From: Pelomonas caseinilytica
Lineage (GTDB): Bacteria > Pseudomonadota > Gammaproteobacteria > Burkholderiales > Burkholderiaceae_C
Direction: 5' to 3'
Assembly: GCF_021353235.1 (NCBI RefSeq)
Contig: NZ_JAJTWT010000011.1
Span: 1 to 64,000 of the forward strand
DNA length: 64,000 bases
Shown here in pieces: positions 4,763-38,344 of this stretch. Numbering within the stretch: position 1 is the stretch's first letter; each line of letters starts with the position of its first letter. A program made the position numbers and the translations under genes. The notes under the pieces are model-generated. The model did not search any database and was not told the origin of the DNA. It worked only from the letters and a program-made list of their open reading frames with translations.

Positions 4763-4777
4763 CGGGATAGCCTCGGT

Positions 4778-7283: not shown

Positions 7284-7961
7284 TCAGGCGCCCTGGCGTC
7301 TCTCCGCCGCGGCCAGCCGGTCCAGTTGGCTGGCCATCATGCCCCCCAGCATCCGGGCCACGGCCTTGGGGTCCAGCGGCTCGTCGAACAGCATCTCGAT
7401 GGACGCATAGATCATCTCCACCACGAGACGGCTGGCCAGGCGCAGTTCGGAAGGCTCGGCAGCAGGAAACGCCCCGGCCAGCAAGCGGGCCTGGGACTCC
7501 GTGACGGCTGCGTGCGATGACAACCTCACCTGCTGCAGCGCTGGCACGGCGCGCAGCGCACGCATGATCCATATCCCGGCCTCCGTGCGCCGGGTCACCT
7601 CGAAAGTGTCGAGCAGCAGCCCTTCCAGGGCTCGCGCCAGGGCCGGCGCATCCTGGGTGAATACCGCCGGGCACATCCACCTCTCGACACATGCGTTCTG
7701 GCGCTCCATGAGGCGCTGCCCCAGCTCCGACAGCAAGGCATATTTGTTCGGAAAGTAGCGGTACAGCGCCGGCGGCGTCACACCGGCCCGCTTGCACACC
7801 AGGTTGGTGGAGAGCCGCTCGATGCCGACCTCGTCCAAGGTCAGCGCCGCCGCTTGCAGGATGCGCTCGAAGGTGTCGGCAGCGCGCTGCTGGGCCGGCT
7901 GAACCTTGGTGGTCAGCTCAGGTTGCGGCCGGAGCGCTCCGGGCGCGTCGGCTTTCGTCAT
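7284..7961 (-). CDS. TetR/AcrR-family transcriptional regulator (copy 1)
   Basis: I place the start at the ATG at 7961 (MTKADAPG), giving 225 residues. An upstream in-frame start would run the coding region through the operator-like site at 8021-8032. The N-terminal helix-turn-helix reads TFERILQAAALTLDEVG...LVCKRAGVTPPALYRYFPNK, and the rest is a helical ligand-binding domain. It is clearly paralogous to the regulator at 19264-19944: both share GIE-x-LSTNL, TPPALYxYFPNKYA and LGQRLMxRQN. It is divergent from the MFS gene at 8051. The shared operator between them argues for autoregulation and control of the transporter, probably with a pathway intermediate as inducer. Confidence 0.93.
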   Translation of the reverse strand: MTKADAPGALRPQPELTTKVQPAQQRAADTFERILQAAALTLDEVGIERLSTNLVCKRAGVTPPALYRYFPNKYALLSELGQRLMERQNACVERWMCPAVFTQDAPALARALEGLLLDTFEVTRRTEAGIWIMRALRAVPALQQVRLSSHAAVTESQARLLAGAFPAAEPSELRLASRLVVEMIYASIEMLFDEPLDPKAVARMLGGMMASQLDRLAAAERRQGA

Positions 7962-8017
7962 GGTCGTTCGGGATTGCCCGGGCACACGCGCCCTCCAAAT
8001 CAGTAGCCACGACCATA

Positions 8018-8035
8018 TGATAGTCACAGCTATAT
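8018..8035. promoter_or_regulatory. Operator site A of the shared TetR-linked motif
   Basis: TAGTCACAGCTA at 8021-8032 lies between the divergent TetR copy 1 and MFS genes. It overlaps a TATATT box at 8031-8036 that could be the -10 element of the MFS promoter. The same core occurs at 9264, 9281 and 19198, each time just ahead of a gene of this cluster. Confidence 0.65.
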
Positions 8036-8050
8036 TTTTTGACGGACATC

Positions 8051-9211
8051 ATGCAACGCAAAGAGATCGATGCATCGAACCTGATGGCTGCGCTGGCCGT
8101 CGGCTCCATCGCGCTGCTCGTCCTCGGCCTGCAGCCCATCCTCCTGGGCGAATTGCTCAACGCCAGGCGGGTCAGCCTCGAAGGCGTCGGGCTCGTGGCC
8201 ATGGCCGAGATCGTGGCCGTCGGGCTCGGTGTGCTGGCGGGCGACCTGGCGCAGCCGCTGTCACGCTTGCGCTCCGTTGCAGTCCTGGCCGCGTTGGCCT
8301 CGGGTGCCATCGACATCTGCACCCTGCGAATCGAAGGCGATGTCGGCTTCGCGCTGATCCGCGCTGCGGCCGGCCTTGCCGAGGGCTTGCTGGTGTGGGT
8401 CGCCACGGCGGTGATCGTGCGGTGCGCCAAGCCCGACCGCGTGGCCGGCATCTTTTTCGTGGTGCAGACGGCGGCTCAGGCCCTGCTCGGCCTGCTGCTG
8501 GCCCGTCTGGTGATACCCGCCTTCGGCTGGTCCGGCGCGTTCATGGTCCTGGCCGGCCTCATGGCGCCAGTCGTCGTGATCGCCCTTTTTCTGCCTGGGC
8601 AGTTGGCTGCACTGGTGCCGCCGGCACTGAGCGGCTTCGTCTGGTCCGCGCGCACCGCGCTGCCGCTGCTCGCGGTCTTCCTTCAGCTGGCGACATTGGG
8701 GTCGCTCTGGGCCTATGTCGAGCCCTTGGGAAAAGATGCCGGCCTGCCGGCCCAGGCCGTCGAGACCCTGATCGCCATCTGCCTGGGCGTGCAGGTGCTG
8801 GGGGGGAGCTGCGGCTCGGCGCTGGTGAGGAAACTCCGCACGCCGACCACCCTCCTCCTCGGCTCGGGCGTGCTCGGTGTCGTGGCGCTGTCCGTGGCAG
8901 GCACCGCGGCAGGGCACACGATGGAGTTCGCGGTTCTTTGCGGCGTGTTCTCCTTCACCTGGCTGTTCATCACCCCGTTCCAGATGCGCCTGGCCTTCGA
9001 TGCCGACGGCAGCGGCCGAATCGCCTCGCTGGTCCCGGCGGCCCAGGTCTTCGGCATCGCCTTCGGCCCGCTGGCGGCCTCTTTCGTCGTCGAAGGCGAA
9101 CAAGCCCGCTCCGTTCCTCTCGTCAGCGCCGCCTTCGCGGCGGGCGCCATGGCGACGCTGGCCCTCGGCATGGCCTGGCACCGGCGCGGCCACCCGCAAG
9201 TCGACGCGTGA
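8051..9211 (+). CDS. MFS transporter
   Basis: The 386-residue protein is almost wholly hydrophobic helices with MFS-like spacing. There is an Arg-rich loop near residues 75-80 and a long series of Ala/Leu/Val/Gly helices to the end. I chose the ATG at 8051 because ACGGACATC in front of it can serve as a weak ribosome site; an in-frame TTG lies 12 bases earlier. It belongs to the superfamily by hydropathy and layout rather than by a clear signature motif, so its direction and substrate are unknown. Its place next to TetR copy 1 and the kinase operon suggests that it imports the substrate of that pathway. The shared operator motif supports joint control. Confidence 0.85.
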   Translation: MQRKEIDASNLMAALAVGSIALLVLGLQPILLGELLNARRVSLEGVGLVAMAEIVAVGLGVLAGDLAQPLSRLRSVAVLAALASGAIDICTLRIEGDVGFALIRAAAGLAEGLLVWVATAVIVRCAKPDRVAGIFFVVQTAAQALLGLLLARLVIPAFGWSGAFMVLAGLMAPVVVIALFLPGQLAALVPPALSGFVWSARTALPLLAVFLQLATLGSLWAYVEPLGKDAGLPAQAVETLIAICLGVQVLGGSCGSALVRKLRTPTTLLLGSGVLGVVALSVAGTAAGHTMEFAVLCGVFSFTWLFITPFQMRLAFDADGSGRIASLVPAAQVFGIAFGPLAASFVVEGEQARSVPLVSAAFAAGAMATLALGMAWHRRGHPQVDA

Positions 9212-9260
9212 CGGCCCGGCCGCGCCTACGGGTTTCCGCGAGCCTTTCGTACCCCTTTAA

Positions 9261-9295
9261 ATATAGTCATCGCTATATACTAGTCATCACTATGA
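9261..9295. promoter_or_regulatory. Operator sites B and C in tandem, kinase operon promoter
   Basis: Two copies of the core lie 17 bases apart. TAGTCATCGCTA at 9264-9275 is embedded in a perfect ATATAG-N6-CTATAT palindrome, and TAGTCATCACTA lies at 9281-9292. A TATACT box at 9276-9281 sits between and inside them. A repressor bound here would cover the promoter of the kinase operon that starts at 9336. Confidence 0.7.
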
Positions 9296-9333
9296 ATGAC
9301 CGACCACACCCCTCCAGCTCCCCCAAGGCCTGA
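9292..9333 (+). CDS. Possible 13-residue leader peptide ahead of the kinase
   Basis: An ATG inside operator site C opens a 13-codon frame (MNDRPHPSSSPKA) whose TGA ends two bases before the GTG start of the kinase gene. It has no clear ribosome site, so any translation would be leaderless or weak. Its tight fit to the next start would allow translational coupling. This may be chance. Confidence 0.2.
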   Translation: MNDRPHPSSSPKA

Positions 9334-9335
9334 TC

Positions 9336-10940
9336 GTGCCGACAAGCCCCGACGAACGCCTCGTCCTCGCCATCGACCTCGGCACTTCGGGCTGCAAGTG
9401 CGCCCTGGTTGCCCTGGACGGCACCGTGCAGGCGTGGGCGTTCCGGCCCGTGCCCCTGCACGTCCAGGGCGTGCAGGCCGAGCAGGATCCGGCCGACTGG
9501 TGGCAGGCCTTGCTCGGTGCGGCCGGCGAACTGCTGAACGTCGACGCGGCGCGGCGCCAGCGCGTGGTGGCTGTCTGCTGTTCGACGCAAACCGAGGTCA
9601 CCGTCTGCGTGGACCGCAACGGCAGCCCCATCGGTCGCGCCATCAGCTGGCTGGACGCGCGTGGCGCGGCGGCCATCGCGCGGCGCGCCCGAGGCCGGTT
9701 CCTCAACGTCGAAGGCTATGCGCCGCTGAAGCTGTGGCAATGGCTGCGCCTGACCGGCGGTGCGCCCTCCAGCACCGGACGCGACAGCGCCGGCCACATG
9801 GCCTACCTGCGCGACGAACGCCCCGAGGTCTATGAACGCACCCACAAGTTCCTCAACGCGCTGGACTACCTGAACCTGCGCCTTTGCGGCCGGCTGTGCG
9901 CCACGCAGGACTCCATCCTCACGGCCTGGGTGACCGACAACCGGGACGCATCGAAGGTGCGCTACGACCCGCGGCTCGTGCGCCTGCTCGGCATCGATGC
10001 CGACAAGCTGCCCGAGATCGTCAGGTCGACCGACGTGATCGGCACGCTGCTGCCCGAGGTGGCCGACACGCTGGGGCTAGCGCCGGGCACCCTCGTCGTG
10101 GCCGGCGCGGTGGACAACTCGGCGGTGGCCGTCGGGGCTTCGGTGGGCGACTACGAAACCCACCTCTACCTCGGCACCTCGTCGTGGCTGGGCGCGCACG
10201 TGCCTTTCATGAAGACGGACGTGTTCCGCAAGATCGCCGCCGTGCCCTGCGCGGTGACGGGGCGTTATCTCGCGATGGCCCTGCAGTCCACGGCAGGCGC
10301 CAACCTGTCCTTCCTGCGCGACCGCATCCTCTACCACCCCGACGAACTCGCTGGCGACGAGGAGCATCCCGAGGTCTACGACGTGCTCAACCGCATCGCC
10401 GCCCGCGTGCCGCCCGGCGCGCGCGGGCTGATCTACACGCCCTGGCTGTTCGGCGAGCGCACGCCGGTCGACGACCCGCGCCTGCGGGCGGGGCTGATCA
10501 ATCTCTCGCTCGAGCACTCCAGGGAGGACATCTTCCGCGCCTTCCTGGAAGGCGTGGCCTTGAATACGCGCTGGATGCTCGAACCCTTCGTCAAGCTGCT
10601 GGGACGCGAACCGGGCGCCCTCACCGCGGTGGGCGGCGGTGCGCAAAGCGAGGTGTGGTGCCAGATCATGGCCGACGTCACCGGGCAGGCCATCCGCCAG
10701 CCCATCGCCCCCATCCAGGCCAATGCCATCGGCGCGGCCTTCATCGCGGGCGTCGGCATGGGTGCGATGACCTTCTCCGACCTGGCGGCCCTGCGCCGCA
10801 CGCGGCGGGTCTACGAGCCGACCTCCGACCTGCGGCAGCTCTACGCCGACAAGTTCGAGGCCTTCAAGGAAGTGCGCACGCGCCTGGCGCCGCTCTACCA
10901 CCGCTTGAACGCCCCATCACCCGCCCGCCAGAGCCCATGA
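9336..10940 (+). CDS. FGGY-family carbohydrate kinase
   Basis: The 534-residue protein has the two actin-like ATPase halves of the FGGY family. The N-terminal phosphate motif is AIDLGTSGCKCALV, the predicted catalytic base is Asp260 in VAGAVDNSAVAVG, and the C-terminal adenosine-site region reads LTAVGGGAQSEVWCQIMADV. Family members phosphorylate sugars or polyols (xylulose, ribulose, glycerol, erythritol and others) in the cytoplasm; it reads most like XylB-type kinases. The start is a GTG with AAGG seven bases before it. The next gene overlaps by an ATGA, so the two products should be made together: the kinase makes a sugar phosphate and the aldolase cleaves it. Confidence 0.93.
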   Translation: MPTSPDERLVLAIDLGTSGCKCALVALDGTVQAWAFRPVPLHVQGVQAEQDPADWWQALLGAAGELLNVDAARRQRVVAVCCSTQTEVTVCVDRNGSPIGRAISWLDARGAAAIARRARGRFLNVEGYAPLKLWQWLRLTGGAPSSTGRDSAGHMAYLRDERPEVYERTHKFLNALDYLNLRLCGRLCATQDSILTAWVTDNRDASKVRYDPRLVRLLGIDADKLPEIVRSTDVIGTLLPEVADTLGLAPGTLVVAGAVDNSAVAVGASVGDYETHLYLGTSSWLGAHVPFMKTDVFRKIAAVPCAVTGRYLAMALQSTAGANLSFLRDRILYHPDELAGDEEHPEVYDVLNRIAARVPPGARGLIYTPWLFGERTPVDDPRLRAGLINLSLEHSREDIFRAFLEGVALNTRWMLEPFVKLLGREPGALTAVGGGAQSEVWCQIMADVTGQAIRQPIAPIQANAIGAAFIAGVGMGAMTFSDLAALRRTRRVYEPTSDLRQLYADKFEAFKEVRTRLAPLYHRLNAPSPARQSP

Positions 10941-11590
10941 AACACGCCCAGCAACGCCAGCACGTCGTCGACCTCTGCATCGAACTCTCGCACCGCGGCT
11001 ACTTCGCCGGCACCGGCGGCAACATCATGCTGCGCGTGGATGCCGGGCACGTCGCCGTCACGCCATCGGCCATCGACTACTTCAGCATGGCCGCGGCCGA
11101 CGTGTGCATCCTGCGCCTGTCCGACCTGCGCCAGGTCGAGGGCGACCGGGCGCCCTCGGTGGAAAGCAGCCTGCACGCGGGGGTGTTGCGCGCGCGGCCG
11201 GAGGTGGGCTGCAGCATCCACACCCATCAGCCGGTGGCCAGCGCCCTGGCATTGCTGGGCGCCGAGATCCCCGTGCCACCTGAGTGGCATGCCGCGCTGG
11301 GCCCGCGCCTGCCGCTCGTGGGCTACGCCCCGTCAGGCAGCGGCTGGCTGGCCTCGAAGTTCAGACGCGCCGTGCGCCCCGACATCAACGCCTACCTGAT
11401 GCGCAACCACGGCATCCTGTGTTGCGGGCACGACAGCGCCGCCGCCATGCGGGCCGTCGATGACCTGGAAACCCTCGCCCGACGCCTGCTGAGCCAACGC
11501 ATCGGCGCGCGGGCCGTCGGCTCGGCGGCCGGGCTGCGCCAGGCCCTGTGGCGCATGCATGACGCCTTGAACGGACGCAGCCCTTCCTGA
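10937..11590 (+). CDS. Class II aldolase/adducin-family protein
   Basis: This 217-residue protein matches the length and layout of zinc-dependent aldolases such as FucA, AraD epimerase and RhaD. The predicted zinc ligands are His95 and His97 (SIHTHQP) and His158 (MRNHG), with Glu76 (SVESSLH) as the acid/base. The family performs retro-aldol cleavage or epimerisation of sugar phosphates through a zinc-bound enediolate. The gene starts inside the kinase stop codon (ATGA overlap), so a kinase-then-aldolase order is likely. The reaction products cannot be inferred, although ketose-1-phosphates giving dihydroxyacetone phosphate are the usual case. A catalytically degenerate relative is encoded at 13115-13741. 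Confidence 0.92.
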   Translation: MKHAQQRQHVVDLCIELSHRGYFAGTGGNIMLRVDAGHVAVTPSAIDYFSMAAADVCILRLSDLRQVEGDRAPSVESSLHAGVLRARPEVGCSIHTHQPVASALALLGAEIPVPPEWHAALGPRLPLVGYAPSGSGWLASKFRRAVRPDINAYLMRNHGILCCGHDSAAAMRAVDDLETLARRLLSQRIGARAVGSAAGLRQALWRMHDALNGRSPS

Positions 11591-11615
11591 ACTCTCCCCA
11601 CACCGAGCGCACGCC

Positions 11616-13103
11616 ATGAGCAACCTCGCCTCCATCCACGCCGCGGCCGCCAATGGCGCCGCCGACTCCGCCATCTCCGCATGGCCGGACACGACCGCCC
11701 TCTACGGCCGCCTCGCCGAACTGGTGGCCCAGCCGATGCGGCCGATCCGCCCCGACGCCATGCCCAAGGTCCTGCGCTGGTTCGAGCAGAAATGCGCCGG
11801 GTCCAAGCGGCTGGCCGAACAGGCCAAGGCCGTCATCCCGGGAGGCGTGCAGCACAACCTGGCCTTCAACCACCCCTTCCCTCTGGCCATCAGGCAGGCC
11901 GAAGGCGCCTACCTGACCGACGTGGACGGCAACCGCTACATCGACTTCCTGCAGGCCGGCGGCCCCACGCTGCTGGGCAGCAACCACCCGGCGGTGCGGC
12001 AGAAGGTGCACGAGCTCATCGACGAATGCGGCCCCGTCACCGGTCTGCTGCACGAATACGAGGTCAAGCTCGCCGAGCTGGTGTGCAGCCACATGCCGGG
12101 GGTCGAGATGCTGCGGCTGCTCGGCTCGGGCACGGAAGCGGTGATGGGGGCAGTTCGGCTGGCGCGGACCTACACCCGCAAGAAGTGGATCATCAAGGTC
12201 GGCGGCGCCTATCACGGCTGGAGCGACCAACTCGTCTACGGCATGCGGCTGCCCAACACCGGCCGCATGGAGGCCACGGGCATCCCGCGCGGCGCCACGG
12301 GCCACACGCAGGAATGCCTGCCCAACGACCTCGACGCCCTGCGCCGCAAGCTGCAGCTCAACCGGCTGCGCGGAGGCACCGCGGCCGTGCTGCTGGAGCC
12401 GCTCGGCCCGGAGAGCGGCACCCGCCCGGTGCATGCCGGCTACAACGCCGAGGTGCGCAAGCTGTGCGACGAGTTCGGCGCCTTGCTGATCTTCGACGAG
12501 GTGGTCACGGGCTTTCGCATCGGCATGGGCGGCGCGCAGGCCTATTTCGGCGTCAGGCCGGACATCACCGTGCTCGGCAAATGCCTGACCGGCGGCTACC
12601 CCATGGCCGGGGCCATCGGTGGCCGGAAGGACGTGATGATGTCCCTGGTGGGCGGCATCGGCACCACCTCGCGCCGCGCCTTCGTCGGCGGCACGCTGTC
12701 GGCCAACCCGCTGTCCTGCGTGGCCGGCTACCACGCGCTCAGGGAGGCCGAGCGCAGCAACGCGGCCGTCGTGGCTGGCCGTGCCGGCGACCGGCTGCGC
12801 CTCGGCCTCGAAGAGATCATCCGCCGCCGCGGCCTGCCCTACGTCGCCTACAACATGGGCTCCATCGTCCATCTGCAGACCTCGGGCGTGCTGCTGCTGG
12901 ACACCAGCAGCCTGTGGAAGCTGTTCAAGGTCAAGGACGAGGCCAGGCGGCGCAAACACATGATGGAGGAGATGGGCGCCGCCTACACGGCGCACGGCCT
13001 CGTCACACTCGCGGGCAGCCGCATCTACACCAGCCTGGCCGACACCGACGACGTGATCGACGACGCGCTCAACCGCTTCGACGACGTGTTCGCCCTGGTC
13101 TGA
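11616..13103 (+). CDS. Class III PLP aminotransferase, GSA-aminomutase-like
   Basis: The 495-residue protein is a fold-type I PLP enzyme. It shows GSGTEAVMGAVRLAR, the cofactor-stacking GAYHGWSD, IFDEVVTGFR and the predicted Schiff-base Lys322 in LGKCLTGGYPMAG. It resembles glutamate-1-semialdehyde aminomutases but has about 60 extra N-terminal residues and lies inside a sugar operon. A role in haem synthesis is therefore unlikely, and a transamination or aminomutation of a small amino-aldehyde or keto compound is more plausible. It follows the aldolase by 25 bases. Its amino acceptor or donor is unknown. Together with the alanine-racemase-fold enzyme encoded in the opposing operon, it suggests that the substrate contains an amino group. 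Confidence 0.92.
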   Translation: MSNLASIHAAAANGAADSAISAWPDTTALYGRLAELVAQPMRPIRPDAMPKVLRWFEQKCAGSKRLAEQAKAVIPGGVQHNLAFNHPFPLAIRQAEGAYLTDVDGNRYIDFLQAGGPTLLGSNHPAVRQKVHELIDECGPVTGLLHEYEVKLAELVCSHMPGVEMLRLLGSGTEAVMGAVRLARTYTRKKWIIKVGGAYHGWSDQLVYGMRLPNTGRMEATGIPRGATGHTQECLPNDLDALRRKLQLNRLRGGTAAVLLEPLGPESGTRPVHAGYNAEVRKLCDEFGALLIFDEVVTGFRIGMGGAQAYFGVRPDITVLGKCLTGGYPMAGAIGGRKDVMMSLVGGIGTTSRRAFVGGTLSANPLSCVAGYHALREAERSNAAVVAGRAGDRLRLGLEEIIRRRGLPYVAYNMGSIVHLQTSGVLLLDTSSLWKLFKVKDEARRRKHMMEEMGAAYTAHGLVTLAGSRIYTSLADTDDVIDDALNRFDDVFALV

Positions 13104-13114
13104 AGGTGGCCGAC

Positions 13115-13741
13115 ATGGAGCAGACCCTGCGGCAGCTCTGGCTGCAATTGCGCGAGCGGCTCGTGGCCAAGCAATTGCTCGGCGGCGCGGAGCCGGCCTT
13201 GTCCCTGCGCATTCCGGGCAGCGACGCGATGTGGTTCGGCGGCGCGCAGGACGATGTGCCGCGGCGCATCGCCTGGCGCGGCACGCCGGAGGCCGGCGCG
13301 GCCTTGCACGCCGCCGTCTTCGCCGCGCGGAACGACGTCTGCGCGCTGGCCTCGGGCGGCGGCCCTTTCGGGCTCGGCCTCGCCGACTTCGGCGGCGCCC
13401 TGCCCGGCGTCTTCGACGAGCAGGTACGGCACCTGGGGCGCATGGCGCCGCCACAGGCAGGCCATGGCCTCGGCCAGGCGCTGGCCGCGGGAGGCAATGC
13501 CGTGCTGGTGCAAGGCCGGCCGCTAGTGCTCGGCATGACCGGCGCCCGCCTGGCCCTCAACGCCGAGCTGTTCGAGAAGTGCGCCAAGGCCTGCGTTCTC
13601 GCCACCGCCGCTGGCGGCAAGGTGAGGCCGCTGCCCTGGATCGTCCGGTACGTGGCCAATGGCCGCCTGATGAAGGACGAGCGCCGCGCAGCGCGGCGCG
13701 TGCGCCAGGGTCTGCTGCCCGAGGAAACCAAGGGCTACTGA
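13115..13741 (+). CDS. Degenerate class II aldolase-like protein lacking zinc ligands
   Basis: The 208-residue protein has the length and secondary pattern of a class II aldolase (ALHAAVFAARNDVCAL, VFDEQVRHLG, then a C-terminal helix LNAELFEKCAKACVLA). The metal site is gone. The HxH pair is replaced by SGGGP (residues 80-84), the NHG histidine by QGRP (133-136), and the equivalent of the catalytic Glu by Gly. It is thus likely a structural or regulatory partner of the active aldolase at 10937, or it has acquired another function. The start at 13115 has GAAGGTGG six bases before it. It is the last gene of the operon and converges on the PLP-enzyme gene with a 12-base gap. Confidence 0.75.
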   Translation: MEQTLRQLWLQLRERLVAKQLLGGAEPALSLRIPGSDAMWFGGAQDDVPRRIAWRGTPEAGAALHAAVFAARNDVCALASGGGPFGLGLADFGGALPGVFDEQVRHLGRMAPPQAGHGLGQALAAGGNAVLVQGRPLVLGMTGARLALNAELFEKCAKACVLATAAGGKVRPLPWIVRYVANGRLMKDERRAARRVRQGLLPEETKGY

Positions 13742-13753
13742 GCAGCAGCGCCC

Positions 13754-15022
13754 TCAGGCCGAGGCCGGCAGCACCGGCCAGCTGGCGCTGATGCGAGTCC
13801 CGTCGAACACCAGCAGATCGCCGAACTGCAACAGCACGGCCTCGCTCTGCTGCGGGCGAAAGAAGACGTAGTCATCGGGCCGCAGGTCCACCCGCTGCGA
13901 AGCCACCATGACCTGCTGGTTGCTGGAGTTGCCGTAGAGGCCGCTCGGCGCGATGCCGGGCGGCGAGACCGGTTCGGCCAGCCAGTGCCCGCCGTGGATG
14001 GCGAAGCCGCGTGCCTGGTTGCGGTCCCAGGCCTGGGCGGCGCGCGAGAGCCAGGTCGCGCCCTCGGGCAACCGAAAGCGCGGCCAGCTCTTGAGCACCG
14101 GCGTGGCAATGAAGGCCGCGGGCTGGAGATCGGCCAGCAGCGGCTTCTCGAAGTCCAGCGGCAGCAGCGCCGCGGAGCCGACCGACACCTCGTTGGCCGG
14201 GCCCTTGCCGTCGTGCAGGCGAAAGGTGGGCGAGCCGGCCGTGTTGAGGGTCAGGCTCTCGCGCGGCCGGGGTCCCAACGCCGCCTCGGCGGCACTCCAG
14301 GCGGCTTGCCAGCGCCGCCGGGCCTCTTCCCAGGCTGTGGCACGCATGCCCGGCAGATCGGGCAGTGCGGCGACATGGGCGTCGTAGCCCATGAAGCCGC
14401 TCCAGCGCAGCAGCGGCGCGCCACGCAGCGAGGCCAGGGCCGGTCCCAGGCTCGCGACGTCCTCGAAACCGCCACGGTGCAGGCCGACGTCGAGCTCGAA
14501 GTTGAGCTTGAGCGCCTGGCCGCGCTGCTCGGCCAGTTGCCGGTACTGAGCCAGGCGCTCGGGCGTGTCGACCAGCCATTCGATGCGGCTGCCCACCTCC
14601 ACCGGCAACTGGCCCAGCACCTGGGCGGCGGCGGCCACGGGCAGGGGCTTGCCGAGCAGGGGCTCGGCCAGCGGCCTGGCGGCCAGCAGCTGCTGCAGCT
14701 GGGCGGCGTTGAAGGCCATCACACGCGGGCTGTTCCAGGCACGGGCCACCTCGTCCATCAGCGGCAGCGAGGGCAGGCTCTTCAGCACGGCCCGCAGGGC
14801 CATGCCGGTACGGCCGCGGTGGGCGCCGATGGCGGCCAGGTTGGCACGCAGCCGCGGCAGGTCGATGACCATGCGGGCCTGCGCGACGCCGGCCTCGTGC
14901 AGCGCCCGGCCCAGGCCGGCGAAGTATGGCGAGTGGGGACCGCCCCGTTCGGACGGGCGCGCCAGCCAGGCGCCGAGCGGGGCGGCGACGGCCGCGCCGA
15001 GCATCAGCCGCCGCTTAGCCAT
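13754..15022 (-). CDS. Tat-exported PLP enzyme, alanine-racemase-fold (D-threonine aldolase-like)
   Basis: The protein has 422 residues. A leader KRRLMLGAAVAAPLGAWLA at residues 3-21 has a twin-Arg-like start, so a cofactor-loaded protein may be exported to the periplasm. The body follows the fold-type III layout of DSD1/D-threonine aldolase: RMVIDLPRLRANLAAI, the predicted PLP Lys81 in LRAVLKSLP, then GLHRGGFE, and a C-terminal beta domain with FAIHGGHWLAEP that may hold a metal site. This family cleaves or dehydrates D-beta-hydroxy amino acids. I chose the ATG at 15022, which overlaps the stop of the oxidase gene by eight bases. It is the last gene of the TonB-receptor operon. The substrate is unknown. 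Confidence 0.85.
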   Translation of the reverse strand: MAKRRLMLGAAVAAPLGAWLARPSERGGPHSPYFAGLGRALHEAGVAQARMVIDLPRLRANLAAIGAHRGRTGMALRAVLKSLPSLPLMDEVARAWNSPRVMAFNAAQLQQLLAARPLAEPLLGKPLPVAAAAQVLGQLPVEVGSRIEWLVDTPERLAQYRQLAEQRGQALKLNFELDVGLHRGGFEDVASLGPALASLRGAPLLRWSGFMGYDAHVAALPDLPGMRATAWEEARRRWQAAWSAAEAALGPRPRESLTLNTAGSPTFRLHDGKGPANEVSVGSAALLPLDFEKPLLADLQPAAFIATPVLKSWPRFRLPEGATWLSRAAQAWDRNQARGFAIHGGHWLAEPVSPPGIAPSGLYGNSSNQQVMVASQRVDLRPDDYVFFRPQQSEAVLLQFGDLLVFDGTRISASWPVLPASA

Positions 15023-16391
15023 GGGCGCCGCCGAAGAGTTGACCGAGATGGGCGTTGAGCATCTTTCCCTCGGGGTCCAGGCGGCGGCGCAGCGCCTGGA
15101 AGTCGGCGAAGCGCGGGTACAGGGCCTGCAGCTGCGCCGCGCCGAGGTCGTGCAGCTTGCCCCAGTGCGGCCGGCCGGCGTGGCGGCGGAACACCGGGCC
15201 GAGCTCGCTGACGAGGTAGTCGTAGGCCTCGCCGTGGGCGGCATGGCAGGCGACGGAACAGCTGTCGCGGCCATGGAAAGGGCTGAGCCAGGCGGTGTCG
15301 CCCTTGACGTGGCGGAACTCGATGGGGAAGAACACCTCGTTGCGCCGCTCCAGCGTCTGCACGATCTCGCGCAGGCAGGCGATGCCCTGCTCGCGCGGCA
15401 GGTGGTATTCGCTTTCGTTGAAGCGGGTGGGCCGAACGGTGCTGAGCAGCCGCCACGACCAGTCCGTCGCGTTCTCCGGCGCCGCGCGGCGGACCAGCTT
15501 GGCGGCGGCCCAGCGCCGCAGCTCGGGCCACCGGCCCAGCCAGTCCCGCAGCTTGCGCAGGTCGGCGAGCACGTCCTCGTCGGGGGCCTTGGACACGTCG
15601 GCGGCACCCGGGGCGACCTCGTCGTGCGTGACCGCGGCAGCGTAGCCGGTGAAGGGCAGCACGAACATCTCGAAATGGCGGTGCTTGCTCGCCAGCTCGG
15701 GCGCCTGCTGCAGCAGCTCGTCGGTGGGAGCCACCCACAGCCTGCGGCGCAGCATGAAGCGGGGCCGCACGGCCAGCGTGAACTCGCTGATGACCCCCAG
15801 GGCCCCGAGCGAGACCTGGGCGGCGGCCAGCAGCTCCGGGTCGCGGTCGCGGCTGATCTCCAGCACCTCGCCGGCCGGGGTCACGAGGCGCAGTCCCTGC
15901 ACATGGGCGTGCAGGGCCGGCAGCTCCGCCCCGGTGCCGTGGGTGCCGGTGGCCAGCGCACCGGCGAGGCTTTGCACGTCGACGTCCGGCTGGTTGTGCA
16001 GGGCGAGGTCCTGGGCGTCGAGCAGGCGGGCGAGCTGGCCCAGGCGCGTGCCGGCCCGCACGCGCACGAGGTGGCGCGCCTTGTCCACGGACACGAGGCC
16101 GCTCACCCGATCCAGCGACAGCAGGCTGCCGGCGGTGGGCACCAGGGCAGTGAAGGAGTGGCCCGCACCGACGCAGCGCAGCGGGGCCGGGCTCTGAGGC
16201 AGCAGCCGTGCAAGCTCGCCCTCGTCGGCCGGCAGCAGCCACCGGTTGGGCTGGCACTGCGCACTGCCCGACCAGTTCTGCCACTTGCGCGGGGCGGGGG
16301 CGGCCGGCGGGCTGGGCTGAGCGTGGCCCGGCAGGCCGCTCGCCAGCCCCAGCGCCGCGGCGCCCTTGAGCACGTCGCGCCGGGCCGTCAT
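15015..16391 (-). CDS. FAD-linked sugar lactone/alditol oxidase, Tat-exported
   Basis: With the start at 16391 the protein has 458 residues. It begins with a Tat leader (ARRDVLKGAAALGLASGLPG, about residues 3-22) and is probably periplasmic. The VAO-type FAD domain shows CVGAGHSFT, where His78 is the predicted covalent flavin anchor, and GALATGTHGTG. The C-terminal HWGK motif (residues 409-412) is diagnostic of D-arabinono-/L-gulono-1,4-lactone and alditol oxidases. The gene overlaps the cytochrome gene by an ATGA, so electrons from substrate oxidation probably pass to that cytochrome rather than to oxygen. The substrate could be an aldonolactone, a polyol or an amino sugar derivative. Confidence 0.92.
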   Translation of the reverse strand: MTARRDVLKGAAALGLASGLPGHAQPSPPAAPAPRKWQNWSGSAQCQPNRWLLPADEGELARLLPQSPAPLRCVGAGHSFTALVPTAGSLLSLDRVSGLVSVDKARHLVRVRAGTRLGQLARLLDAQDLALHNQPDVDVQSLAGALATGTHGTGAELPALHAHVQGLRLVTPAGEVLEISRDRDPELLAAAQVSLGALGVISEFTLAVRPRFMLRRRLWVAPTDELLQQAPELASKHRHFEMFVLPFTGYAAAVTHDEVAPGAADVSKAPDEDVLADLRKLRDWLGRWPELRRWAAAKLVRRAAPENATDWSWRLLSTVRPTRFNESEYHLPREQGIACLREIVQTLERRNEVFFPIEFRHVKGDTAWLSPFHGRDSCSVACHAAHGEAYDYLVSELGPVFRRHAGRPHWGKLHDLGAAQLQALYPRFADFQALRRRLDPEGKMLNAHLGQLFGGAHG

Positions 16392-16762
16392 GGCTGGCGT
16401 GGCGCCGGCGGGGCGCTCATGAAGACGATCAGCGCGCGCAGGTCCGCCTCGCTGCAGTCGGCGCACATGCCCAGGGCCGGCATGCCGCCGACGCCGTCAC
16501 GCGCGCTGGCCACGAGCTGGTCGAGCCCCTTGGCCAGGCGCGGCGCCCAGGCGGCGGCGTCGCCGGTGGTGGGAGCGCCGCTGCCGGCACGGCCATGGCA
16601 CAGCAGGCAGGAGCGCTCGTAGGCGGCGGCCAAGCGGGCATCCGCCGGCCGCAGCTGTTCCGCATCCTGGGTCAGCCGGGGGGCCGGCGCCGACGAGTCG
16701 CCGCAGCCGCCGAGCAGGGCGAGCAGCCCCGACAAGGCCACCGGGGTCAGGGCTGGTCGCAT
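16388..16762 (-). CDS. Lipoprotein cytochrome c5-type
   Basis: The 124-residue protein has a lipoprotein signal (LLALLGGC, lipid-modified Cys20), a single haem site CLLCH (Cys52, Cys55, His56), and the predicted axial Met94 in GGMPALGMCADC. The Cys pair 100/103 is typical of the c5 subgroup. It would be anchored facing the periplasm and carry single electrons. Its start overlaps the TonB-receptor stop (TGATG), and its stop overlaps the oxidase start. This is good evidence that it is the dedicated electron acceptor of the FAD-linked oxidase. Confidence 0.93.
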   Translation of the reverse strand: MRPALTPVALSGLLALLGGCGDSSAPAPRLTQDAEQLRPADARLAAAYERSCLLCHGRAGSGAPTTGDAAAWAPRLAKGLDQLVASARDGVGGMPALGMCADCSEADLRALIVFMSAPPAPRQP

Positions 16763-19176
16763 CAATACCCCACGTGCAGTTCGAGCGAGGCGCTGCGCCC
16801 CGGGCTGACGGTGGCATAGGCGCTGCCCAGCGGGGCGGCTTCGTACCAGAGCTTGTGGACGTAGCGGCGGTCCTGCAGGTTGGTCACGAGCAAGGCCAGG
16901 CCCCAGGCGCGGTCGGCGCGGTCCCAGCCGAGCCGGGCGTCGAGGCGGCTGCGCGGACCGCCCACACGAAAGCTCGCCGTGCTGAGGCATTGGCCCTGCA
17001 CATAGGACTCCGGGTTGCAGCGCTGCGCGCTCTGGTAGGCAGCCTGCAGGTTGGCGCCGGCGCGTCCGCCGAACGCGGCGAAGCCATAGTCCACGCCGAT
17101 GCTGGCTCGGCTGCGCGGCGTGCCCACGGGCAGGCCTGCCAGGTCTTCGCCGCCGCTGGCGCGGCCGTGGCGGTAGGTCTGGTCCAGCAGCTCCAGCGCG
17201 CCGTTCAGCCGCAGCCCCGCGCTGAGCTGCCAACGGGCCTCGAGGTCCAGGCCGGTGCCGCGCTGGTCGCTGACGGTGACCTGGTAGGCCGGAATGGCGC
17301 CCGGCGTGCTGGCCGGCACGAGCTGCAGCGTCTGCAGGTTGTCGAAGCGGTACTGGAACAGCGACGCGCCCCAGCTCAGCGCCTGGTCGGCCAGCTGGCC
17401 CTTGAGGCCGAGTTCGAAGTTGGTGACGCGCTCGGGCTGGTAGCTGGAGGCCACCTGCAAGGTGTTGAAGCCGCCGGCCTGGTAGCCGCGCGTCACGGAG
17501 GCGTAGACCATCAGGTCGCGGCTGTAGCGGTGGTCCAGCACCAGGCGCGGGCTGGTGTCGGTCCAGCGCTTGCGCAGGCTCAGCGGCGCCTGCGTGGCGC
17601 CTTGCGTGGCGATCAGGGAGTTCTGGCTCATGCCGCCGCGCAGCTGGTCGGCCTGGTCCTGGCTCAACGCGCCCATCGCCACCAGCCCCGGGAAGAGGCC
17701 GGCGGCGTCCAGGGCCGCGAGCTGCGCGTCCAGCGCGCCCGCCTCGCGCAGCGGATTGAACCAGCTGAAGCGCTTGTCGTCGCGCGTGAAGCGCAGGCCG
17801 GTGGTGAGGCGGGTGGCCGGGCTCAGGTGCCAGATCACGTCGCCATAGACGGCCAGGGCGCGGTTGCGCGCCACGTTGCTCATGAGCTCCTGCCACGGCA
17901 GGCCCAGCAGGTCGACACCCGTCAGGCCCGCCGCGGCCGAGAGCTGGTTGACGGTGCTGAACAGAGGCAGGCCCAGCAGGTTGCCGCTCAGGGTGTCCAG
18001 CGAGGTGGTGGTGGCATCCGCCGAGGCCGTCTGGGTGGCGCGCTCGTCGTAGAGGCTCAGGCCGGCCAGCCAGTCGGCCATGCCCTGCTTGCCGGTCAGG
18101 CGGAACTCCTGCTGGAAGCTGCGGTTGCCTTCCAGGTTGGTGGTGGACAGGTAGATGGCCGGGTTGTTGGTGCCGTCGTTGTCCTGGCGGTTGAGGCTGC
18201 TGAAGTGGCGGTAGGCGGTGGTCGAGCTGAACTCCGCCCACGGCAGGCTGTGCTCGATGCGCAAGGTGAGGCCGTCGAAGTCGCGCTTCTCGCGGTCGCC
18301 GGCCACGTCGTTGAGCAAGGGCGCATGCAGTGGGTCCAGGTACTGGGCGGGGTCGGCCGGGAAGGGCGGCGGAGTGCCGGGCGCGCCGGCCTTCACGAGG
18401 CCGATGGCGGGGCGGGCGCGCTGGTCGAGCCTTTCATGCTCGTAGGTCAGAAAAGCCTGCGTGTCTTCGCTGGGTTGCCAGCGCAGGGCCAGGCGGGCGC
18501 CCCAGCTGTGGTCGCCACCGGCGCGCTGTCCGGTAGCCGCGTCGCGCAGTTCGCCGTTCGAACTGCGGGTCACGAGGCTGGCCCGTAGCGCCAGGCCGTC
18601 CCCCAAGGGCTGGTTGACGAGGGCCTCCGCCTGGCGCAGGCCGTGCTCGCCCAGGCGTAGCAGTCCACGGCCGCTCGCGCGGAACTCGGGCTCCTGCGTC
18701 ACGATGGAGATGGCGCCACCCGCGCTGTTGCGTCCGAACAGCGTGCCCTGCGGGCCCTTGAGCACTTCGATGCGCTTCACGTCGTTGAAGTTCAGCAGCG
18801 CGCCGCCCGTCTTGCCAGCGTACACGCCATCGACATACATGCCCACCGGCGAGTCCGTGCCGATGCCGAAGTCCGAAGTGCCGATGCCCCGCAAGGACAT
18901 GCGCGGCTGGGTCGGCTGGTTGGCGTCGACGTCCAGGCCGGGGATGTGGGCGTCCAGGTCGCCGAGGTTGGCGGCGCCCAGCTTGCGCACCTGGTCGGCA
19001 CCGAGCACCTGGATGGCGATGGGCACGCTTTGCAGTTGCTGCGTGCGCCCCTGGCCGGAGACCACCACGGTCTCGAGCTTCTGCGAGGCCTCGCCCTCCG
19101 AGGTCTGCGCCTGGGCGCACCAGGCCAGGACGGACAGGGCGATGACGCTGCGGCGCGGGCTGCGAAGGCGAGGCAT
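16762..19176 (-). CDS. TonB-dependent outer-membrane receptor
   Basis: The 804-residue protein starts with a signal peptide (cleavage near AQAQ, about residues 20-24), then TonB-box-like ETVVVSGQ. The plug domain contains SLRGIGTSDFGIGTDSPVG and VLKGPQGTLFGRNSAGGAI, and a 22-strand-type barrel ends in Tyr. It resembles the receptors of sphingomonads and related bacteria that import plant- or microbe-derived organic compounds rather than siderophores. It is first in a four-gene operon with every junction overlapping. An AGGAGA ribosome site precedes the ATG, and operator site D lies 22 bases upstream. It is therefore the likely entry point of the substrate for this pathway. Confidence 0.95.
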   Translation of the reverse strand: MPRLRSPRRSVIALSVLAWCAQAQTSEGEASQKLETVVVSGQGRTQQLQSVPIAIQVLGADQVRKLGAANLGDLDAHIPGLDVDANQPTQPRMSLRGIGTSDFGIGTDSPVGMYVDGVYAGKTGGALLNFNDVKRIEVLKGPQGTLFGRNSAGGAISIVTQEPEFRASGRGLLRLGEHGLRQAEALVNQPLGDGLALRASLVTRSSNGELRDAATGQRAGGDHSWGARLALRWQPSEDTQAFLTYEHERLDQRARPAIGLVKAGAPGTPPPFPADPAQYLDPLHAPLLNDVAGDREKRDFDGLTLRIEHSLPWAEFSSTTAYRHFSSLNRQDNDGTNNPAIYLSTTNLEGNRSFQQEFRLTGKQGMADWLAGLSLYDERATQTASADATTTSLDTLSGNLLGLPLFSTVNQLSAAAGLTGVDLLGLPWQELMSNVARNRALAVYGDVIWHLSPATRLTTGLRFTRDDKRFSWFNPLREAGALDAQLAALDAAGLFPGLVAMGALSQDQADQLRGGMSQNSLIATQGATQAPLSLRKRWTDTSPRLVLDHRYSRDLMVYASVTRGYQAGGFNTLQVASSYQPERVTNFELGLKGQLADQALSWGASLFQYRFDNLQTLQLVPASTPGAIPAYQVTVSDQRGTGLDLEARWQLSAGLRLNGALELLDQTYRHGRASGGEDLAGLPVGTPRSRASIGVDYGFAAFGGRAGANLQAAYQSAQRCNPESYVQGQCLSTASFRVGGPRSRLDARLGWDRADRAWGLALLVTNLQDRRYVHKLWYEAAPLGSAYATVSPGRSASLELHVGY

Positions 19177-19194
19177 GAGTGTCTCCTGGTCAAA

Positions 19195-19212
19195 ATGTAG
19201 CGATGACTATAT
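19195..19212. promoter_or_regulatory. Operator site D between TonB receptor and TetR copy 2
   Basis: TAGCGATGACTA at 19198-19209 is the exact reverse complement of the core at 9264-9275. It lies 22 bases before the TonB-receptor start and 55 bases before the TetR copy 2 start, so one site can control both divergent genes. Confidence 0.68.
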
Positions 19213-19263
19213 TGACTCGAATGGCCGTCGCGATCAGGTAAATCCCGCAGCTAGACTCGGCCC

Positions 19264-19944
19264 ATGCCCACCCCTCTTCCCCGCAAGCCACGCGCCCGCC
19301 CCGCCACCGCCGCGCCGCCGGACGTGGCCCCCAAGAAGGCGCCGACCCAGCCGCGCGCGGTCGAGACCTACGAGCGCATCCTCGCCATGGCGGCCGAATT
19401 GCTGGGCGAGGTCGGCATCGAGCAGCTGTCCACCAACCTGATCTGCCGCCGCCTCGCCATCACGCCGCCGGCGCTCTACCAGTACTTCCCCAACAAGTAC
19501 GCCATCCTTCACGAGCTGGGCCAGCGCCTCATGCAGCGCCAGAACGAATTGCTGGAGCCCTGGGCCACGCCGGCCACCATGGCCCTGCCCGAGGCGCGCT
19601 ATGCCAAGAGCGTCGCCAAGCTCTTCCTGGAGACTCTGCGGCTGACCGAGCAGATGCCGGCCGGCGTCTGGGTCACGCGCGCCCTGCGTGCCGTGCCCTC
19701 GTTGAAGGACGTCCGCATCCGCTCGCATGACGCGGTGACCGATCTGCTGCTGCAGGCCTTCATGGCGGCGCATCCCAACGTCGACCCGGCGCGCGCACGG
19801 GTCAGCATCCGGCTCGCCATCGATGCGCAGTACGCGGCGCTGGAATTGCTGTTCGACGATCCCAGCCAGTCTCCCGAAGCCGTGGCCGAGGTGATGGCCG
19901 AGATGGTGGCCGGGGAGCTGGCCCGCCTGCGCCGCAAATACTGA
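19264..19944 (+). CDS. TetR/AcrR-family transcriptional regulator (copy 2)
   Basis: The 226-residue protein has a Pro/Arg/Ala-rich N-terminal tail of about 35 residues. The helix-turn-helix follows (ETYERILAMAAELLGEVG, then RRLAITPPALYQYFPNKYA) and then a helical sensor domain. It is a paralogue of the regulator at 7284-7961, with a nearly identical recognition helix. Both could therefore bind the same TAGTCAYMRCTA operators. It is divergent from the TonB-receptor operon. No good ribosome site precedes the ATG. Two related regulators flanking one cluster may sense different intermediates or form mixed control. The ligand is unknown. Confidence 0.94.
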   Translation: MPTPLPRKPRARPATAAPPDVAPKKAPTQPRAVETYERILAMAAELLGEVGIEQLSTNLICRRLAITPPALYQYFPNKYAILHELGQRLMQRQNELLEPWATPATMALPEARYAKSVAKLFLETLRLTEQMPAGVWVTRALRAVPSLKDVRIRSHDAVTDLLLQAFMAAHPNVDPARARVSIRLAIDAQYAALELLFDDPSQSPEAVAEVMAEMVAGELARLRRKY

Positions 19945-22264: not shown

Positions 22265-22275
22265 GTGGGACTGAA
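22189..22275 (+). CDS. Possible 28-residue leader ORF overlapping lpxL start
   Basis: An ATG at 22189 is preceded by GGGGAGGAAA, a strong ribosome-site candidate. The basic 28-residue product (MLKNKIRRWTGAF at the start) ends 11 bases inside lpxL in a different frame, which would permit translational coupling. No homology is recognised, and it may be fortuitous. Confidence 0.3.
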
Positions 22276-23134
22276 GCTGCTCGTGGGCCTGGTGTGGCTG
22301 CTGAGCTGGCTGCCCTTTCGCGCGGTCTCGGCGCTAGGCTGGGTGGCCGGGCAGTTGATCGCCAGCCTGCCCTCCTCTCGCCGGCACATCGGCGAGGTCA
22401 ACCTGCGGCTGTGCCTGCCTGACTGGACGCCGGCCCAGCGTCGCCGCCTGCTGCGGCGCCATTTCGTCGCCATGGTGCAGATGCTGCTGGAGTACGGCTA
22501 CTGCTGGTTCGCCTCGCCCGAGCGGCTGCGGCGGCTGATGCGCATCCAAGGCCTGCAGCACCTGAAGGCCCTCGAAGGCCGCCCGGTCATCCTCATGATG
22601 CCGCACTTCACCGGACTGGACCTCGCCGGCCTGCGCATCTCGATGGAGACGCCGGTCGTCAGCATCTATTCGCGGCAGAAAGATGCCTGGCTGGACGAAT
22701 TCTTCCGCACCCGGCGGCTGCGCCTGGGCACGGGCATCATCTTCTCGCGCCAGCAGGGCACCCGCTCGGTGATCCGGGCGCTGCGCGACGGCTACCGGCT
22801 CTACTACCTGCCCGACCAGGACTTCGGGCACCGGGACTCCGTCTTCGTGCCCTTCTTCGGCGTCAATGCCGCCACCATCACGGGCCTGTCGCGCATGGCG
22901 GCCGTGGCCAACGCCGCCGTGCTGCCCTGCTACCCGCGCCGTGAGGCGGATGGCTACACCCTCGTCATCGAGCCTGCCCTCGACGACTTCCCAACGGCCG
23001 ACGCCACCGCCGATGCCGCGCGGATGAACGCCGTCATCGAAGCCCAGGCGCGCCGACAATTGCACCAATACTTCTGGCTGCACAAGCGCTTCAAGTCCCG
23101 CCTGCCGGGCGAGGCGGATTTCTACGCAAGATGA
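22265..23134 (+). CDS. lpxL: Lipid A acyltransferase (LpxL/HtrB family)
   Basis: The 289-residue protein has one N-terminal hydrophobic helix (residues 3-20) and the family catalytic motif HFTGLD (His114, Asp119). It also has the conserved EYGYCW, SRQQGTRSVIRAL and LPDQDFG stretches of late lipid A acyltransferases. These inner-membrane enzymes add a secondary acyl chain from acyl-ACP to Kdo2-lipid IVA. The GTG start follows GGGAG with seven bases between. The stop overlaps the next gene (ATGA). Together with the LpxO-like gene it forms a lipid A modification pair. I cannot tell LpxL from LpxM function by sequence alone. Confidence 0.92.
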   Translation: MGLKLLVGLVWLLSWLPFRAVSALGWVAGQLIASLPSSRRHIGEVNLRLCLPDWTPAQRRRLLRRHFVAMVQMLLEYGYCWFASPERLRRLMRIQGLQHLKALEGRPVILMMPHFTGLDLAGLRISMETPVVSIYSRQKDAWLDEFFRTRRLRLGTGIIFSRQQGTRSVIRALRDGYRLYYLPDQDFGHRDSVFVPFFGVNAATITGLSRMAAVANAAVLPCYPRREADGYTLVIEPALDDFPTADATADAARMNAVIEAQARRQLHQYFWLHKRFKSRLPGEADFYAR

Positions 23135-27575: not shown

Positions 27576-27608
27576 AAAACGCCGTCCGTGGCAGACACTG
27601 GCGGCGTT

Positions 27609-27711
27609 CCTCACTGGAGAGAGGCTGGCCCCAGGCCAGCCCACCGAAGGGGCAAGCTTGCGCGGGACAGCCACCGCCTTGTCAATCTCTCAGGTACCCG
27701 GGACAGCGAGG
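27609..27711 (+). promoter_or_regulatory. Glycine riboswitch, aptamer 2
   Basis: The closing stem CCTC (27609) pairs with GAGG (27708). The boxes CTGGAGAGAGG, CCACCGAAGGGGCAAGC and TCTCTCAGGTACCCGGGAC match the glycine aptamer. In known cases, tandem glycine riboswitches turn on gcv genes when glycine is in excess. The gcvT ribosome site (CGGAG, 27733-27737) lies 22 bases after the aptamer. Confidence 0.95.
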
Positions 27712-27743
27712 ACATCCAAACCCGAATTCCGTCGGAGCCCTCG

Positions 27744-38295: not shown

Positions 38296-38344
38296 GGGGC
38301 GTCCTTTCGACGTCAGTCAACGATGGCGTCATGGTCCCGGGTCC

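Follow-up and report, generated by a model that had tools for sequence, protein, structure and literature searches.

The window analysed here, a stretch of 64,000 nucleotides of Pelomonas caseinilytica (contig NZ_JAJTWT010000011.1, positions 1–64,000), carries between 7284 and 19944 a gene cluster made of two halves, module A (left half, 13754–19944) and module B (right half, 8039–13741). The two halves very probably form one regulon through which sphingoid bases are taken up and broken down, and its two TetR-type regulators, paralogues of each other, would share a common operator; the case is made because this operator is common to sphBCD clusters, module-B clusters and a ceramidase operon of Albitalea. 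By sequence, module A belongs with the published sphBCD genes as their homologue and is known in kind. Module B – an FGGY kinase, a class II aldolase (ALD1), a class III aminotransferase (AT3) and a degenerate aldolase (ALD2) behind an MFS transporter – is undescribed as far as found. The evidence leans slightly towards a widespread bacterial route that treats phytosphingosine like a sugar, with ALD2 as a degenerate partner and, in part of the hosts, an operator shared with SphBCD and with ceramidase/endoglycoceramidase genes. Regulon and mechanism of the two modules together make a fairly probable explanation of the cluster, lowered slightly because the operator is missing in half of the tested module-B loci.

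A sequence-only reading of the same DNA had described two opposing operons with two related TetR regulators, and this holds: every gene it named in the cluster is in place and belongs to the family it gave, as judged by Pfam and NCBIfam (Table 1). Signal and lipoprotein motifs were judged by eye, and the gene caller used was a simple one that misses genes. The genes of module A nearly touch one another and are divergent from TetR2, while those of module B are divergent from TetR1. The two regulators are 49% identical. TetR2 copies 71–83% identical adjoin module A in loci L014–L019 of other genomes, and TetR1 is 62–66% identical to the TetR protein adjoining module B in L042, L044 and L047.

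Module A encodes homologues of SphB, SphC and SphD that are 55%, 43% and 42% identical, respectively, to genes at the sphR locus of a Pseudomonas aeruginosa record. In that record the relative of the pyridoxal phosphate (PLP) gene lies behind the FAD oxidase and the cytochrome, and one transporter gene stands between the PLP gene and sphR, which is the arrangement of sphBCD in the available part of PMC3900636. The SphC homologue scores 488 bits on TIGR01679, where the cut-off is 292. Module A matches the published system in its gene types and in their order (cytochrome, FAD oxidase, PLP protein), but P. aeruginosa has the AraC regulator SphR and a predicted porin, SphA, where the window has TetR2 and a TonB receptor. 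In Pseudomonas loci such as L089, an AraC gene also separates module B from sphDCB. A further difference is that sphBCD is here linked and co-regulated with module B, which goes unmentioned in the portions available of PMC3900636 and PMC11893366. The latter, in those portions, gives sphBC as important for removing sphingosine and for growing in the presence of sphingosine, phytosphingosine or sphinganine; in P. aeruginosa, the one species for which the dependence on sphBC is known, sphingosine accumulates when sphBC is lost. The sequence-only reading knew of no named pathway with this set of genes; none was found for the whole set, but its left half is homologous to a published system.

The operator ties the two modules together. 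In the window there are five matches to its consensus, ATAGTCATCGCTAT, at three or fewer mismatches – the four cluster sites in Table 1 and one at 58838 – compared to 0.74 expected, and none of 100 shuffles of the window reached five. The pattern WTAGTCANNGCTAY occurs three times in the whole 5.98-Mb genome, each time within the cluster, and its control not at all, which confirms the shared operators that had been seen by eye. The earlier view of one co-regulated cluster is also judged right; the operator copies lie at 8020, 9263/9280 and 19197. TetR1 and TetR2 are predicted to recognise the same operator. The 17-bp period of the tandem copies recurs in L042, L054, L066 and L082 and before the Albitalea ceramidase gene.

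In many but not all hosts, sphBCD and module B thus carry one regulatory code even where they are apart, and in one case a ceramidase operon carries it too. At two or fewer mismatches, L014 and L016–L019, which come from genomes without AT3, have the operator in the gap that separates TetR2 from the TonB receptor. It is found upstream of module B in L042, L044 and L047 and in 24 of the 48 loci L053–L100, which are the portion of the module-B loci L053–L132 covered by this test. The operator-bearing loci include L054, the Pseudomonas loci L066 and L068–L076, and the Marinobacterium locus L060, which also has sphBCD; in L042, L044, L047, L054 and Pseudomonas L068–L076 the operator precedes module B without sphC or sphD at the cut-off used. 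L091 has a single site, distant from module B, and the module-A loci L021 and L023 have none at this number of mismatches.

Searches of whole genomes gave a similar picture. In 29 chosen genomes a looser pattern, RTAGYSATSRCTAY, had 42 sites, compared to 17 for a reversed control. Of the 42, 27 are at module A or B loci, two are before an unlinked operon of Albitalea terrae and 13 are elsewhere, which is about the control level. The sole exact operator sites in Albitalea terrae are a 17-bp tandem ca. 75 bp before an unlinked neutral ceramidase gene. The gene that follows encodes a glycoside hydrolase family 5 (GH5) protein, and the PDB matches of its catalytic part are endoglycosylceramidases. 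Across 299 genomes of the family, a strict pattern, ATAGTCATSRCTAY, had 34 sites in 32 genomes, compared to 6 sites for the reversed pattern. Among the 25 of these sites not previously seen, six front module A, three front module B, and two adjoin a TetR2-like gene that is accompanied by a TonB receptor gene and some others. At three weaker sites (L172–L174) no query protein matched, and the gene caller found few genes there or none.

Two loci, L221 (5672–6994 and 4523–5662, both on the minus strand) and L222, also combine this operator with genes for a TetR2-like protein and a TonB receptor, and in place of SphBCD they encode a parallel-beta-helix-like lipoprotein and a cytochrome-like lipoprotein (by eye). 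Genes similar to this set come after module B in L045 (11736–14187). These sets are possible further members of the regulon.

The halves are separable modules, not one linear pathway, because most relatives with one half lack the other. Among 199 relatives (the window's own genome included), 13 have an SphD homologue and eight have AT3; four have both, adjacent in three (Fisher p = 7e-4). AT3 and ALD2 occur in exactly the same eight genomes. Twelve other module-A loci were mapped, and six of them (L014–L019) have the full block of TonB receptor, cytochrome, oxidase and PLP protein. Module B is beside module A in two of the twelve (L015 and L022); L020 is a short contig. The sequence-only reading had guessed the types of reaction well – periplasmic oxidation or cleavage, import, phosphorylation, splitting and transamination – but had placed them in a single linear pathway.

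In the proposed mechanism, module A (TonB receptor, SphB, SphC and SphD) would take up sphingoid bases. In the periplasm SphC would oxidise C1, with the electrons passing to the cytochrome SphB, and the C2–C3 bond would then be cleaved, SphD being the candidate enzyme. K81 of SphD, presumably the PLP lysine, lies in a protein with the N-terminal domain PF01168 and is invariant in 11 of 11 SphD homologues. Oxidation of C1 followed by cleavage to glycine and a long aldehyde had already been proposed in 2014 (PMC3900636, available part).

Module B would act in the cytoplasm, after import by the MFS transporter. AT3 would move the C2 amino group of phytosphingosine (a 2-amino-1,3,4-triol) to a keto acid, leaving a 2-keto-1,3,4-trihydroxy lipid, whose head is a ketose and whose tail is an alkyl chain. 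This would be phosphorylated at C1 by the FGGY kinase, and ALD1 would make a FucA-type retro-aldol cut between C3 and C4, giving dihydroxyacetone phosphate (DHAP) and pentadecanal. A fatty-aldehyde dehydrogenase, found near many module-B loci, would turn pentadecanal into the acid. That module B cuts phytosphingosine to DHAP and pentadecanal by transamination, C1 phosphorylation and aldol splitting is a proposal we hold to be just the better side of even.

The choice of substrate comes from the chemistry of the last step. FucA-type aldolases cut a ketose 1-phosphate between C3 and C4 and require a hydroxyl at C4, and phytosphingosine is the only common sphingoid base that has one. Phytosphingosine rather than sphingosine is proposed because the DHAP-releasing retro-aldol needs the 4-hydroxyl, and sphingosine was rejected as a substrate of module B for the same reason. 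Phytosphingosine is D-ribo (2S,3S,4R), and conversion of C2 to a ketone gives (3R,4R); the C3 descriptor swaps by priority, with the geometry unchanged. D-ribulose and L-fuculose have this configuration, and FucA-type aldolases split the 1-phosphates of both. A D-ribulose-type head would fit ALD1 because the best matches of ALD1 are ribulose-1-phosphate and L-fuculose-phosphate aldolases.

Residues E76, H95, H97 and H158 of ALD1 align with FucA residues and are invariant in 10 of 10 sequences; we take E76 to be the glutamate base and the three histidines to be the metal ligands of FucA-type aldolases. The FGGY kinase is below the NCBIfam cut-offs of known kinases, and the curated score for the xylulokinase XylB (TIGR01312) does not make it a xylulokinase (240 vs 380 bits). 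AT3 is likewise below the curated scores for HemL (289 vs 527 bits for TIGR00713, 309 vs 398 bits for NF000818). All 20 of the 20 AT3 sequences compared across phyla keep K322, and the proteins of the window and of Anaerolineae are 66–68% identical. AT3 matches the aminopentol aminotransferase structure 6hbs at 3.5e-28. Going by its molecule name, this structure is FumI. FumI is likewise a PLP aminotransferase, related to AT3, and its substrate, hydrolysed fumonisin, is a sphingoid analogue that loses its amino group at C2 (PMC2933618, available part). By analogy FumI would be a precedent for the AT3 step, although AT3 is only distantly related to it and is placed with a kinase and an aldolase.

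The last protein of module B, ALD2, has no Pfam or NCBIfam match, and a direct BLASTP comparison of ALD1 with ALD2 gave no match. Profile comparison with the ALD1 family by hhalign gave a probability of 96.6. An AlphaFold2 model of ALD2 has a mean pLDDT of 95.8, and a Foldseek search with it returned entries at about 1e-8 to 1e-7, with pyruvic oxime dioxygenase best (2.7e-8) and FucA at 3.7e-8. As modelled, ALD2 has the class II aldolase superfamily fold. In the profile alignment it has other residues at all four of the FucA glutamate and histidine positions, so that the earlier description of a degenerate aldolase is confirmed for a class II fold without metal ligands. Two stretches of its own, FDEQxRxxG and NxxxxEKC, are invariant in 38 sequences. 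ALD2 is probably a non-catalytic partner subunit. In many Chloroflexi-type module-B loci among L102–L132, the ALD2 query matches the gene that directly precedes AT3, which is the place of the ALD1 homologue. No second aldolase gene is labelled in these loci, so ALD2 may be a later duplicate.

An alignment search of genome contigs with AT3 found at least 575 relatives, and the best 80 of these at least 575 loci were examined. Neighbours were counted up to roughly 10 kb from AT3, or to the contig end if that came first, with tblastn cut-offs of 90 bits, or 60 bits for the cytochrome, Mpo1-like and DUF2147 queries. FGGY, ALD1 and AT3 occur together in 68 of the 80 loci. The other 12, without a recognisable FGGY or ALD1, are 11 Chloroflexota-type contigs from metagenome-assembled genomes (MAGs) and one Thermoleophilia MAG, and several of these contigs are short. 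The hosts of module B include Pseudomonas, Xanthomonas, Dyella, Rhizobium, Paraburkholderia, MAGs of Leptospiraceae and Spirochaetaceae, and Chloroflexi; further hosts, Burkholderia ambifaria (84% identity) and Butyrivibrio fibrisolvens (58%), come from plasmid records. AT3 is present in six of 398 sampled Pseudomonadota genomes. The MFS transporter has a homologue of at least 90 bits in 32 of the 80 loci. No description of module B was found in open-access papers on sphingoid-base breakdown, as judged by titles, abstract openings and term counts.

Fourteen of the 80 loci have an sphC or sphD homologue or a neutral ceramidase gene near AT3. A homologue of sphC or sphD is present in 11 (both in 10), from Albitalea, Marinobacterium, Rhodoferax, Pseudoduganella, Rhizobium, Paraburkholderia (sphC only at the cut-off) and Pseudomonas, in differing arrangements; a weaker SphD-like gene in L053, L066, L068, L069, L074 and L075 is below the cut-off and was not counted. 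A neutral ceramidase gene is present in seven, five from Pseudomonas and two from spirochaete MAGs. The ceramidase family, PF04734, was confirmed by Pfam for L099 and by genome search for L101 and L103, and the other four match L099 by BLAST. It is a rare family, found in two of the 398 Pseudomonadota genomes and none of 14 controls. An aldehyde dehydrogenase related to the copy in L060 is near AT3 in 26 of the 80 loci, a weak count given the lax cut-off and the large family; the best PDB match of the L060 copy is an aldehyde dehydrogenase (6k0z) and the second a fatty aldehyde dehydrogenase (4qgk). An Mpo1-like gene (PF06127, 2-hydroxy-palmitic acid dioxygenase Mpo1-like) lies about 5 kb from the Albitalea ceramidase gene, and another lies in the module-B locus of Burkholderia ambifaria beside a transposase gene.

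Other neighbours of module B include genes for Gcw_chp (TorF-type) and DUF2147 proteins, in 26 and 27 of the 80 loci, respectively (e.g., L066 6744–7634 and L069 6312–6737). A GH27 alpha-galactosidase gene adjoins module B in two Burkholderiales MAGs, L045 (1015–2199, by Pfam) and L046 (by eye), beside a TonB receptor 46% identical to that of the window, and could point to glycosphingolipids. In L053 of Paraburkholderia ferrariae (16581–19121), alanine-racemase-fold-like and FAD-oxidase genes come after module B. By eye the encoded proteins seem to have no signal peptides, and they are perhaps a cytoplasmic version of the SphC/SphD pair.

A number of observations speak against a sphingoid-base regulon of this kind. 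At two or fewer mismatches the operator is missing in 24 of the 48 tested module-B loci, among them the TetR1-bearing L053, L058, L062, L065, L077 and L080 and the AraC-controlled L085–L100, including the five Pseudomonas ceramidase loci. Albitalea's own cluster of modules A and B (L059) carries only two-mismatch sites, and 14 of the 25 new ATAGTCATSRCTAY sites are at seemingly unrelated places. Most module-A genomes lack module B, and 66 of the 80 module-B loci have neither sphC/sphD nor a ceramidase gene nearby. PF04734 is absent from the window's genome and from 34 of the 36 module-B genomes searched whole, the positives being L101 and L103; the 44 genomes outside that search include Albitalea and the five positive Pseudomonas. 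There is no PF14031 match on SphD at E 0.01, and the one match in the window's genome is a different gene. The PSHPC of that PF14031 protein aligns with Pxx-S-E in 11 of 11 SphD homologues, so that the His/Cys motif of the D-serine dehydratase (DSD) type, which we take to be metal-binding in that family, is missing. In this SphD differs from D-threonine aldolase and D-serine dehydratase, and ordinary D-threonine-aldolase chemistry was rejected as a settled SphD step because both the metal motif and PF14031 are missing. No sequence feature proves a lipid-sized pocket in AT3, FGGY or ALD1. The nearest solved relatives of AT3 are glutamate-1-semialdehyde (GSA) aminomutases, to which it is closer than to FumI. 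Sphingosine and sphinganine should not pass module B, though the linked ceramidases and SphBCD are known for sphingosine (for SphBCD and the ceramidase CerN: PMC3900636 and PMC11893366, available parts). According to the available part of PMC11893366, sphD is dispensable in P. aeruginosa.

Module B might instead act on sphingoid bases in another order or with another cut – for example kinase first, to a sphingoid-base 1-phosphate that is then transaminated, or a GSA-aminomutase-like step on the 2-amino aldehyde produced by SphC – in which case phytosphingosine would not be the main substrate. GSA aminomutases act on a 2-amino aldehyde, the two modules have a common operator and sometimes a common locus, and SphBCD and CerN are known for sphingosine. 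This is an unlikely alternative: in 69 of the 80 module-B loci neither sphC nor sphD is near, so that module B does not have to rely on the SphC product; the substrates of FGGY kinases are sugars and polyols, and this speaks for a ketose-like compound formed by transamination; and class II DHAP aldolases are established as needing the 4-hydroxyl.

The absence of neutral ceramidase from 34 of the 36 genomes searched whole could also fit the degradation of a small water-soluble amino-polyol or amino sugar, the link to sphingolipid genes being secondary or due to chance. FGGY kinases and FucA-type aldolases are sugar enzymes, and there is a GH27 gene beside module B in L045 and a GH35 gene near the cluster in the window. 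This appears very doubtful in view of the ceramidase genes adjacent to module B in Pseudomonas and in MAGs of spirochaetes, the presence of the operator in sphBCD-only loci and in front of the unlinked ceramidase operon of Albitalea, and the absence of the GH35 gene and its MFS neighbour from all 80 module-B loci. The sequence-only reading had supposed an amino sugar or lactone, which was wrong in kind; in view of the sphBCD homology and the ceramidase and operator links, a sphingoid base, which is an amino-polyol of lipid nature, is very probably the substrate. Two narrower candidates were also dropped. D-glucosaminate or another amino-sugar acid, which fitted the SphD fold and the GH35 neighbour, does not suit the ceramidase, sphBCD and operator links, and galactosyl-amino compounds, suggested by GH27 and GH35, were set aside on the same zero count in 80 loci.

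The regulon might also serve mainly for detoxification, with both modules only inactivating antimicrobial sphingoid bases and giving no growth benefit, which is compatible with the mechanism proposed above. Several module-B hosts, counted in favour of this, are Pseudomonas species that are presumably plant-associated. Phytosphingosine inhibits plant-associated bacteria, as far as the available literature goes, and sphBC protect P. aeruginosa from growth inhibition (PMC11893366 and PMC3900636, available parts). A route to DHAP and a fatty aldehyde with an aldehyde dehydrogenase, an uptake receptor and a ceramidase looks catabolic, however, and a purely protective role seems rather unlikely.

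The route proposed for phytosphingosine has parallels in known pathways. The L-fucose/D-arabinose (D-ribulose-1-phosphate) pathway likewise has a ketose C1-kinase followed by a class II aldolase that gives DHAP and an aldehyde from a (3R,4R) head. Its ketose comes from an isomerase, whereas here it would come from transamination of a lipid amino-polyol, and here there are in addition a degenerate aldolase and linked sphingolipid genes. The pathway of sphingosine kinase and sphingosine-1-phosphate lyase likewise takes a sphingoid base to a fatty aldehyde and a phosphorylated small product, but the lyase cuts C2–C3 to give phosphoethanolamine, while the cut proposed here is C3–C4 to give DHAP. 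No member of the PLP lyase family was seen among the cluster proteins in the Pfam and NCBIfam scans. The logic of module B would be that of the ketose-1-phosphate aldolase pathways moved to a lipid – if true, a new route for sphingolipid biology.

The bacterial dismantling of sphingoid bases is largely an open subject, and even the product of the sphBCD reaction could not be identified in a 2025 study (PMC11893366, available part). If true, module B would be a second, independent and apparently widespread route, tied to SphBCD by one operator. It would suggest a way in which phytosphingosine, a plant lipid with antimicrobial action, could be made harmless by bacteria and also serve them as food, and it would show a carbohydrate kinase and aldolase turned, unusually, to work on a lipid.

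Table 1. Genes and operator sites of the cluster, with window coordinates
Feature	Position	Strand	Family, evidence or remark
TetR1	7284..7961	-	PF00440; regulator accompanying module B
Operator, 2 mismatches	8020..8033	+	TetR1/MFS divergent promoter
MFS transporter	8039..9211	+	PF07690; first ATG at 8051
Operator, exact consensus ATAGTCATCGCTAT	9263..9276	+	between MFS and FGGY
Operator, second copy, 2 mismatches	9280..9293	+	17-bp period with the 9263 copy
FGGY kinase	9336..10940	+	PF00370/PF02782; proposed C1-kinase of 2-keto sphingoid base
ALD1, FucA/ribulose-1-phosphate-aldolase-like class II aldolase	10937..11590	+	PF00596
AT3, class III (HemL/GSA-aminomutase-like) aminotransferase	11616..13103	+	PF00202; proposed sphingoid-base transaminase
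ALD2, 208 aa, class II aldolase fold without metal ligands	13115..13741	+	profile comparison, AlphaFold2, Foldseek
SphD homologue, alanine-racemase-fold PLP protein, Tat-type leader (by eye)	13754..15022	-	PF01168
SphC homologue, Tat-type ALO-type FAD oxidase, gulonolactone-oxidase family	15015..16391	-	TIGR01679
SphB homologue, c-type cytochrome lipoprotein	16388..16762	-	PF13442; lipobox read by eye
TonB-dependent receptor	16762..19176	-	PF00593/PF07715; proposed sphingolipid/sphingoid-base uptake
Operator, 1 mismatch	19197..19210	-	TonB receptor/TetR2 divergent promoter
TetR2	19264..19944	+	PF00440; regulator accompanying module A

Just left of TetR1, at 3422–7132, are genes for a GH35 beta-galactosidase-family protein with a Tat-like leader and for an MFS transporter. 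This pair was left out of the cluster because it is absent from the 80 module-B loci and from the 12 module-A loci. Elsewhere in the window, genes for a glycine cleavage T protein (27588–28856) and a serine dehydratase (32513–33901) lie about 8–14 kb from the cluster; glycine is the SphD product proposed in print, and the nearness of these genes may be due to chance. Two open frames of 591 and 935 amino acids (20099–21874 and 37094–39898, both on the minus strand) have no Pfam match at the cut-offs used. At 22265–24051 a gene of the Lipid A acyltransferase family precedes one of the aspartyl/asparaginyl beta-hydroxylase family (PF05118).

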